From Astrocystis sublimbata (lineage: Eukaryota > Ascomycota > Sordariomycetes > Xylariales > Xylariaceae), in assembly GCA_022453515.1 (NCBI GenBank), contig JAJNNY010000061.1:62001-126000 (forward strand): DNA of 64,000 nt, given 5' to 3'. The position numbers and the translations under genes were made by a program. Below are positions 49,722-52,815 of the stretch, one piece after another. A model generated the notes under the pieces. The model made no database searches. It saw nothing but the letters and a program-made list of their open reading frames with translations, and was not told where the DNA came from. Numbering within the stretch: position 1 is the first letter of the stretch; each line of letters starts with the position of its first letter.

Positions 49722-52700
49722 TCACCACACATTCCCATTCCTCGAATCCTGAGGCGAAGCTCCCCATGCCGTCACGTGGGCAGCTTCACCAGGCCTACAA
49801 TTCACGAGCCCGCCGTCGACTGCCCCCCACGGATTCGTCACGCCCAAGTTCACCCCAGAATCAGCTGCTCCTCCAGCTTGCAGCCAGCCATATCGCTTCC
49901 CGCCATGCAAGTACACGCCCGGAGCCTCCGGAGCCGACGAGATCGACACCCTGTCCACCGACGACACAAGCGTCGCATCAACATCCATGGCGCGATTAAA
50001 CGTATACCCCAAAAAAGCCGTCTGCTTGCGGATCTTCAGAACCGTCGCCTTCGTGTTGCGGTCACGGAGCAGACGGTCCCGCGGCCGTTTCCGCTCGCGC
50101 CGGCCGAACGTGCGCACAAACGTCTTCATCTGCTCCGCAAGCAACGCCGCATGCGTAGCTGGAGACTGGGTTGGAAAGGACGCCGTCGATGTTAATAGAT
50201 TACTACTAGCTATTGCTAGAGCATGTATGTCTCGGTCCATGCGTTTCAGGCGTATCGAGTCATAGGGCACGGCCACGAACTGCGCAAGCATGTTGCGAGT
50301 GTGCCGCGGGAAGACGGCTAGATCAACCTGCATGGCCGCCATCTTCTGCGAGCTGCGGCGGATTGCCGTCTGCGGGTGTGCATTATGGCCGAAACAATCA
50401 GCCTGGGGCATTGGTGTTGCGAATTGGCCTTGTTGGCTAGTCGTAGCAGAGTTGTTCGCCACAAGCGGATTTACTTCAAGAGCTGCTGCTGTGGGTGGGA
50501 AGTCCGAGCCCTTCGTCTCCGTGTTGTTATCGTCTGAGTCCTCGCTGTCTGAATCGGACCAATCCGAGATGGGCTCCTCTTCATCGAAATAGCGCGTGTC
50601 CTCCATGTCGGCGATGCGCGGCACAAAGGGCGGCGTGATGAGGTGTAGCTGGTCCCAGGGTATGTCACGGAACCACTTGTGCGCTTTGATATCCTCGGCA
50701 TCGTGCGGATAGACCGAGCGATCCTTGATGGCTTTTGCCCGTAGTCTGGCGCGGCTCGTGCAGGCCGGCTCTGCTGACCCCTGAGTTCGATACCGCTTCG
50801 ATGAGAGACGGTTTTCTCGGACACACACCAAGTTCGCGATGAGGTCCATGCACCGTCTTGAAACCGCAGGTCGCGGCGGGAAAGCGAACGTCTGCTCGTG
50901 GTTGACGATGTTTCGCTTCGTCTGCTGCCGCCCGCCCTCCTCCGATAGGAAGGGTGTGTGGCCGTAGAGACACTCGTATAAGATGACACCGAGGCTCCAC
51001 TAGTCGCATCTGGCGTCGTAGTCGCCTTCACGGATGACCTCAGGCGCCATGTACTGGCTCGTACCGACGCACGACCGAGCCGCCGTGCGATTACCACAGC
51101 GGTTGCGCCAGTTGAGGAGCGGCTCGTCGCGCAAAGTTAAGGCCATGCCAGAGCCCGCCGGCTCTGGTTGGCGCTCATGCTTCTGCATGGCATGTGTGAC
51201 ACCCTGGGCCCATTTCATCGAGCCTTGGAGGCCCTCTGCGCGATCGGCCGCATCGCCTTCCACCGACAGTCCGAGCTTTTGAAGCAGACTGTAGCGCTGA
51301 GTGTGGTAGTAGCCGGTGTCGTGGGACCAGTGGCCGTCAAAGGCCAATCCGAAGTCAGAAATCTTGAGGTGTCCGGAGGCCGAGACCAGAAAATTGTCCG
51401 GCTTGATATCGCGGTGTATGCAACGCAGCGAGTGCGCCTCCTCGATGCAAAGAATCATCTCGGCCGCGTAGAATTTGGCCACGGGCTCGCTCAGGATATT
51501 CTCACGGATGAGCAGCCCGAGAAAATCTCCGCCTGGCATGTAATCCATGACAAGATAAAGATTTGCAGCATCCTGAAAGCTTGAGATGAGCGGGACAATC
51601 CTATGTCTCTCGTTAGTATGCTTGACCAGGCGGGCCAGGGTGGCTGGCTCGGGTTCTGTTATTTTACCATCGCGATCCTTCAGAGGCAACTAGAAAGTCT
51701 CTCTCGGCTCGTAGGTGTCCTTCCTGACTTGTCCTCAGCATTGCTGACTTACGAATCACCTTCATGGCATACACCTGGCCGCGTTGCTGGTGACCCTTGT
51801 GCATTTGTTTCTCACGGACGAGTCTGACGACGCCGAAGCTTCCTTTGCCCAGGATTTTAAGAACTTCATAGTCGCCAGCCAAGTCGCTATGTTCGTCATT
51901 CGTGGCACCAAGGCTTCTAGAAGCCAATACACGACTTTGACGGAGATGGTTCGTCTCGTGCTGATAAAACAGAGCTCGCCGCACATCTTTCTCAGTCTGG
52001 CTTAGGCCAAGGTCGTGGCCAAGCTCGCATTCCAAGTACCTTCGGCGAAGCGAACGAGGAGAGGGTTTGTTCATCTTCTCGTTAAAGTATGTTTCAAGGT
52101 ATATCTTGGCGGCTGCGGCCTTCTCGACAGTCACAATAGTGGGTGATGGTGGTTCTATCACCCTCTCTTGGATCGTAGCCAGGCCAGGGTCCGCAATTGC
52201 CTCGGGTTGTTTGTGGTGTACTATGCTCGTGGACCTCTGCTCCACCGGATCGATGTCTCTGCCAGACACCTTTGATTCGAAGGAGGTTGCTGGCGTAGTA
52301 TTGGCATCGTTGGTCGGGCCGGAAGACTTGCCGCTTGAATTTGTATTGCTATTCGATGTTGATGTAGACAGAAGGGCGGGAGCACTAGCTGGCATGATCT
52401 TGTCCGATGTCCTCTCCACTGAGCGAAAGGACGGCCTCGACTTCTTTTTCACACGATGGATTATGGTGACGGGCCCACCAAACGGGTGGCTCAGGAAAGG
52501 AAGAGACATCTTCCCAAAGAGTTGACGTCGTTTAGATAACTTCTCGCTGAGCGGAGGCGACTGAGACAGCCATACCGGCGACTCTCTTCCCGAATGGACT
52601 GATGCTGTTTTCCGGAGTCAGTTGACCAGGGCACATACAAGCTAGTTGGTGCAGAAGGACAACATACGGCTCCGGGTCAGTGTCTGCAAAAGCGATATGA

Positions 52701-52815
52701 ATGAGCCTTGACGCTTGGTCTTCCGAGGTCGCTCAAATCTCTCGCCGGTTGAGAATGGGGAGGGCGACGAGGTGGCTACAGACGATACCCCATCCTCGAG
52801 TACGAGTGTCGCCAT
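49722..52815 (-). CDS. NDR-like AGC kinase, PUK1/STK-21 orthologue candidate, with recoded TAG
   Basis: Exons 52668-52815, 51668-52604 and 49722-51600 give 987 codons counting one internal TAG. An NDR-type N-terminal region (YFNEKMNKPSPRSLRRRYLE) precedes the kinase domain (~290-690): GKGSFGVVRLV, YAMKVIRKS, HRDIKPDNFLV, DFGLAF, a ~75-residue insertion typical of NDR kinases, then TSQYMAPEVI. Next comes DARCD, TAG (51000-51002, codon 562), WSLGVILYECLYGHTPF. The frame is unbroken before and after for hundreds of codons, ending in the AGC tail and KRPRDRLL ... LKIRKQTAFLGYTF. The stop replaces the first Trp of DWW. In Fusarium PUK1 (recalled), stops at this motif are edited to UGG in perithecia. 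Expected role is late sexual development. Without editing the product would be a kinase-dead truncation. Confidence 0.88.
51000..51002 (-). other. candidate A-to-I mRNA editing site (UAG to UGG, Trp562)
   Basis: The coding-strand context is GCGACTAGTGGAGC. The 5' neighbour of the target A is U, the preference known for fungal sexual-stage editing. On the coding strand, GACGCC (51020-51015) can pair with GGTGTC (50993-50988), one G-U pair included. This leaves a 21-nt loop with the target A at its eleventh, central position. Editing would restore the invariant DWW motif. Confidence 0.7.

Follow-up and report, generated by a model that had tools for sequence, protein, structure and literature searches.

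How can a gene encode a full-length protein kinase when a stop codon lies within its catalytic domain? The question is raised by a gene on the minus strand of a 64,000-nucleotide stretch of the Astrocystis sublimbata genome, hereafter the window. Based on the reading frame, splice signals and an alignment of full-length homologues, the gene (52815 to 49722) was modeled as a PUK1/STK-21-type NDR kinase of 987 codons plus TGA with two introns. Exon 1 (52815-52668) starts with the ATG at 52815 and is followed by an intron of 63 nt (52667-52605) with a GTATGT donor, a CTGAC branch-like site and a CAG acceptor. Exon 2 (52604-51668) encodes the N-terminal region and the start of the kinase domain. 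The second intron (51667-51601; 67 nt) has a GTAAAA donor, a CTAAC branch-like site and a TAG acceptor, and exon 3 (51600-49722) encodes the remaining kinase domain, the AGC tail and the hydrophobic motif. An earlier note on this DNA had given 49722-51600 as the kinase frame; this interval is open save for one TAG, as claimed, but it covers the last exon only.

That TAG (51002-51000) is codon 562 and the sole internal stop of the kinase frame in the gene model. It occupies the first Trp position of the DWW motif, and the TGG of the second Trp follows directly (50999-50997), which confirms the arrangement described in the note. The minus-strand translation reads D-*-W-S-L-G-V at this point, and the 425 codons after the TAG contain no further stop. 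The kinase motifs on both sides were said to be intact, and the alignment bears this out. Upstream of the TAG, GKGSFG, the ATP-site Lys, HRD (catalytic-loop motif, residues 424-426; 51416-51408), DFG and APE are preserved. Downstream, the C-lobe is followed by AHKWFRDIPW (50684-50655), which is conserved in Xylariomycetidae and which we take to be a segment of the AGC tail, and by AFLGYTFNR (50018-49992), presumably the NDR-type hydrophobic motif (motif coordinates were calculated from the gene model). With the catalytic motifs, the AGC tail and the hydrophobic motif all intact, the gene encodes an NDR/AGC kinase domain. When the part of the kinase before the stop is compared with solved structures, the best matches are CBK1 of Saccharomyces and STK38 of humans, two NDR kinases encoded by ordinary genes that are not known to contain an internal stop. 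The kinase piece downstream of the TAG, scored alone, reaches 29 bits, just below the Pfam cut-off of 31.7. A genome search with the DNA of 50400-51600 gave a single match in the 42.6-Mb assembly.

In-frame TAGs in other kinases of the genome served as a control, which covered 122 of the 232 kinase candidates. Such a TAG was found at 18 other kinase places, 17 of which fit an intron or exon edge, and none of the 18 lies at a DWW Trp (contexts were judged by eye). The exception is a kinase-like gene (L037; G000:C162:44075-44857) with its in-frame TAG in the motif ATYMA*GPQGV, away from any obvious intron; this TAG may represent either a further corrected stop or a nonsense change of recent date. 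Several kinase hits occur as pairs of identical score (G000:C114:432779-433588 and C114:466363-467172; C121 and C163; C13 and C88), and the two C114 sequences are identical. The paired hits suggest duplicated or redundant stretches in the assembly.

Family placement and known edited kinases

Xylaria species head the homologue list (best 120 of 1832), with full-length identities of up to 74%. A gene tree of 147 kinase rows was built by a quick method with no bootstrap and with the DWW region left out. On one side of a branch with an SH-aLRT of 100 it places 118 rows, among them the window protein and the Neurospora crassa protein P0125 but zero Leotiomycetes; the window protein lies within an 11-row Xylaria set (SH-aLRT 99), and the source is accordingly likely to be Xylaria or a close relative. 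Judging from its species, similarity and skipped site, P0125 appears to be NCU03242 (STK-21), while Fusarium graminearum PUK1 is absent from the proteins in the tree. The grouping with Sordariomycetes rows including P0125 supports the earlier claim that the window gene is a PUK1/STK-21 orthologue, which we regard as likely.

Stops at this motif are known to be edited in other fungi. In N. crassa perithecia, UAG UGG of STK-21 (NCU03242) is changed to UGG UGG (PMC4817773). STK-21 belongs to the same kinase family and has its stop at the same codon as the window gene, and the P0125 model likewise skips the site; its editing was shown by RNA-seq, in a different subclass of Sordariomycetes, whereas editing in the window is a prediction. 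F. graminearum PUK1 (FGRRES_01058) also has a stop at the first Trp, but as a tandem UAG UAG in contrast to the TAG TGG of the window. The Fusarium verticillioides orthologue FVEG_01191, edited in perithecia, has one stop located at the second Trp (UGG UAG), a mirror image of the state in the window; in Magnaporthe oryzae and Claviceps paspali both codons are TGG (PMC4817773). The PUK1 kinase is required for the formation and release of ascospores in F. graminearum (PMC4817773, PMC11156358), and in both F. graminearum and N. crassa the kinase is reported to matter for ascus and ascospore development (PMC4817773, PMC7306014).

The single TAG followed by TGG had been put forward as a state distinct from that of PUK1. 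The difference from UAG UAG holds, but the state is not new, as it is already published for Neurospora STK-21 (UAGUGG; PMC4817773). What seems new is the footprint across Xylariomycetidae and the presence of DYW kinases one codon step from TAG, both described below. The label "stop-loss" has to be replaced, since the published term is premature-stop correction (PSC) and stop-loss is reserved for the normal stop (PMC11156358). The literature searched, the coverage of which was incomplete, with key papers lying outside it, yielded no account of A-to-I editing in Xylariales; editing has been called a common feature of Sordariomycetes (PMC11087585).

The DWW codons in related gene models

A total of 146 kinase models were aligned, i.e., the distinct proteins from the best 120 of 1832 and the best 120 of 3365 matches, with more than one entry for some species. 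Orders were assigned mostly from genus names alone, and the name Xylariomycetidae is used because Pestalotiopsis and some others belong to Amphisphaeriales. Here, the footprint of a skipped DWW was read from the relatives' protein models. Of the 72 listed Xylariomycetidae models, all from the first list, 69 lack a segment containing DWW or its first Trp but stay in the kinase frame beyond it; a few of the 69 are partial or have longer gaps. Counted by window residues, gaps occupy 96% of these 72 models at 550-559, 65% at 560-569, 29% at 570-579 and 19% at 540-549, and at most 6% in all remaining ten-residue blocks between 300 and 699. Naively, the chance that one stop among 987 codons falls on the codon edited in Neurospora is about 1 in 987. 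Because, in addition, 69 of the 72 listed models avoid the same codons, the location of the TAG at the DWW codon is not due to chance.

The comparison of orthologues at this codon, as proposed in the earlier note and carried out on protein models, is not uniform. The 69 skipping models agree with the expectation, but DWW is encoded in the other three, from Rosellinia (P0010), Nemania FL0916 (P0015) and Pestalotiopsis fici (P0055), and the stop is therefore not indispensable. Outside this group, skipping was observed in none of the listed models of Leotiomycetes (0/27), Magnaporthales (0/6) and Diaporthales (0/6), and in all six of Hypocreales. The 22 listed Sordariales models comprise 15 that skip, four with DYW and three with DWW, and seven other models (P0081, P0083, P0102, P0104, P0111, P0128, P0131) comprise two that skip and five with DWW.

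Exactly at the second Trp is where 22 of the 69 skipped models restart. Such a restart needs AG right before the TGG; a preceding TAG provides it, a preceding TGG does not. The skipped site in the relatives thus probably reflects gene finders avoiding a stop, i.e., TAG. Two controls match the published states, as the N. crassa model P0125 (TAG) is skipped and that of Pyricularia oryzae, P0108 (TGG TGG), is intact. Gaps can have other causes, since the Thozetella model P0128 has a gap directly after a DWW that is present. The model of Claviceps africana, P0145, is skipped; this is a different species from C. paspali, for which the TGG TGG was published. The footprint suggests that dozens of kinase models in the databases contain a spurious intron across the catalytic domain.

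A strict pattern for the hydrophobic motif, found in 29 of the 69 skipped models, was discarded as too narrow, because 70 of the 72 models have the motif's F and G when aligned. P0081 comes from a contig of 4,057 bases with an open frame of 982 residues that encodes DWW and is closest to Cercophora-type Sordariales; the contig may be a transcript that was assembled and possibly edited.

Proposed editing and its alternatives

Sexual-stage A-to-I editing of UAG to UGG in the kinase transcript is the best explanation of these observations and, in our judgment, a very probable one. Editing, its stage specificity and a role in ascus or ascospore development are proposed on the model of F. graminearum and N. 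crassa. Translation of the unedited mRNA would stop after residue 561 and omit the remaining C-lobe together with the AGC tail and hydrophobic motif; the 561-residue product would likely be a dead kinase. In the fruiting body, the Tad2-Tad3 deaminase and its cofactor Ame1 would deaminate A51001, which has U at -1, in a predicted hairpin loop. The edited UGG would then restore Trp 562 and give the full-length kinase in sexual tissue only.

The known editing preference is for U at -1 and a purine at +1 and +3 (PMC11156358), and A51001, the predicted target, has U at -1 and G at both +1 and +3 (TAG TGG, 51002-50997). RNA folding predicts a minus-strand hairpin (51017-50985) in which A51001 is the second base of a 4-nt apical loop, UAGU. 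The hairpin-loop probability of this base is 0.91-1.0 with flanks of 15 to 40 nt. It is located in the minimum-energy hairpin loop at six of six lengths, and the hairpin is missing from the centroid of the longest (141 nt). The probability for A51001 is reached by 13/82, 6/82, 12/82, 10/81 and 4/80 of the gene's remaining UA sites when the flanks are 15, 20, 25, 30 and 40 nt, respectively, and the stability of the hairpin is unexceptional (z of -1.8 to +0.45). The predicted loop position gives mild support only to editing.

A real intron, constitutive or stage-specific, might instead remove the TAG, just as the automated models of the relatives have it. The omission of the site from the 69 listed Xylariomycetidae models speaks for such an intron, which we nevertheless consider improbable, and the PSC site of FgBUD14 in F. 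graminearum is known to be both edited and alternatively spliced (PMC11156358). Our scan covered in-frame GT..AG pairs of 45-120 nt that span the TAG. Among the ten such pairs, just one, a 78-nt candidate (51072-50995), has a GTRNGT donor. A YTRAY branch-like site is lacking between every donor and the acceptors; each of the gene's two introns, by contrast, contains such a site. Furthermore, the boundaries of the skipped segment are inconsistent between the relatives' models, which delete the stretch leading to DWW, and the analogous intron of PUK1 was found by cDNA to be an annotation artefact (PMC4817773, PMC7306014). On the splice signals of these in-frame pairs, a real intron across the TAG was rejected.

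A fixed nonsense mutation, leaving either a pseudogene or a gene of which only the short 561-residue form is made, is about as improbable as the intron. The change from TGG to TAG is that expected from RIP or from ordinary C-to-T on the opposite strand, the frame does end after residue 561 if there is no editing, and the window row sits on a long branch in the kinase tree (0.23 versus a sister-species median of 0.084), indicating faster change. However, at the kinase columns conserved in at least 97% of Xylariomycetidae, the window protein departs at 0/138 before the stop and 0/49 after it. The AGC tail and the hydrophobic motif are kept, the downstream codons are free of other stops, and the same footprint extends across the listed Xylariomycetidae. 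Three departures of the window at conserved columns were observed outside the kinase domain. Among kinase positions conserved in the sister species, 13/213 are changed in the window upstream of the stop and 7/95 downstream; nine of the ten sisters have zero to two such changes, and P0006 has 15/181 upstream. The base composition is GC3 0.615 and TA/AT 0.55 upstream of the stop, and GC3 0.671 and TA/AT 0.54 downstream. No RIP signature was detected in the kinase gene, over which TA/AT is 0.59 and (CA+TG)/(AC+GT) is 1.22, and a RIP-inactivated pseudogene was ruled out by these dinucleotide indices together with the lack of another internal stop. Decay specific to this gene, as the long branch could imply, is unsupported: the Ame1 candidate (see below) is similarly diverged, thus fast change is not peculiar to the kinase, and the conserved kinase columns are untouched.

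Ribosomal read-through, by which an amino acid would be inserted at the UAG with the RNA unchanged, is very unlikely. The four listed Sordariales models with Tyr at this position (DYW) suggest that another residue is tolerated, so that a read-through product could work. Contexts of efficient read-through are of the CUA type after the stop, but here UGG follows. Moreover, in F. graminearum perithecia more than 99% of PUK1 reads are edited at one or more of the two As and 90% at both (PMC4817773), and non-editable alleles fail to complement, according to a review (PMC7306014). An assembly or sequencing error can practically be dismissed, as the one assembly seen for this fungus is joined by 69 of the 72 listed models, all from other genomes, in avoiding the same codons.

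Possible age of the stop and candidate editing genes

The ancestral state of the DWW codons was estimated from the listed models. For the Sordariomycetes node, 11 changes are needed if the node was in the skip state versus 12 if it was WW, and the codon-step costs are 11 versus 13. Adding the change from the WW outgroup turns 11 versus 12 into a tie, and a class-wide origin of the stop is only weakly favored and nearly undecided. For the Xylariomycetidae node, the skip state takes two steps versus four, and the models clearly point to an ancestor of Xylariomycetidae in that state.

DYW instead of DWW is found in P0132, P0134, P0135 and P0142, from Cladorrhinum, Podospora fimiseda and Triangularia (Sordariales). 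A single base change turns TAG into either Tyr codon (TAT or TAC), whereas TGG needs two, and thus these kinases probably passed through TAG. One reading, to which we give slightly less than even credence, is that the TAG is an ancient, selectively kept stop switch, already carried by the ancestor of Xylariomycetidae and perhaps by that of all Sordariomycetes. It would have persisted while the subclass diversified because only editing yields the sexual-stage kinase, with exits via TGG or TAT/TAC, and the DYW of Podosporaceae would be a protein fossil of the TAG. The stop would then have arisen at about the time when Ame1 gained its mRNA-editing ability. With the window gene, the classic edited stop of Fusarium and Neurospora would be extended to a Xylaria-like genome and, through gene models, to most listed Xylariomycetidae. 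The coexistence of stop, Trp and probably Tyr states in one family would offer a test of selection versus a neutral ratchet for restorative editing.

The mRNA-editing machinery is composed of Tad2, Tad3 and the DUF726 protein Ame1, in which residues MV500-501, E546, R548 and D589 matter for contact with Tad3 and the nucleophile Ser is dispensable (PMC11087585). In the genome, the Tad2-like gene L016 has HAE and PCVMC, and the Tad3-like gene L022 has HAA in place of HAE along with PCVMC (motifs by eye); FgTad3 has V where L022 has the last A of HAA (PMC11087585). Among the four DUF726 genes, L012 (G000:C108:489687-490205) is of the Ame1 type, its M-V falling within one residue of where it is expected, and the three paralogous genes have SQ, RN and LD at this slot. 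Relative to the nucleophile position, where Gly replaces Ser, L012 has E at +15, R at +17, D at +58 and H at +98. A one-base frameshift in this candidate was ruled out, as the relatives continue in the original frame.

Among the matches listed, the nearest relatives of L012 are Xylaria DUF726 proteins (up to 76%). Its identity to six Xylaria rows is 0.77-0.81, and that of the six among themselves is 0.87-0.96. Of the first 84 of the 120 listed relatives (P0147-P0230, for the most part Xylariomycetidae), 76 carry MV and 83 carry E/R; among the other 36, five carry MV and 31 carry KN, KA, SY or other pairs. The nucleophile slot in P0147-P0230 is Gly in 46, Ser in 37 and Thr in one of the 84 rows, the Gly rows being mostly Xylariaceae; loss of the hydrolase nucleophile is common in Ame1-type proteins.

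A search of the genome for a MAT alpha-box, run with no positive control, found nothing. HMG-box hits were observed, as were DNA methylase (RID) hits, which were considered as a possible second PSC gene. P0153, labelled Lasiodiplodia mahajangana (Dothideomycetes), matches the Ame1 query at 69% over 99% and is placed among Xylaria and Nemania rows, a record that is probably misnamed.
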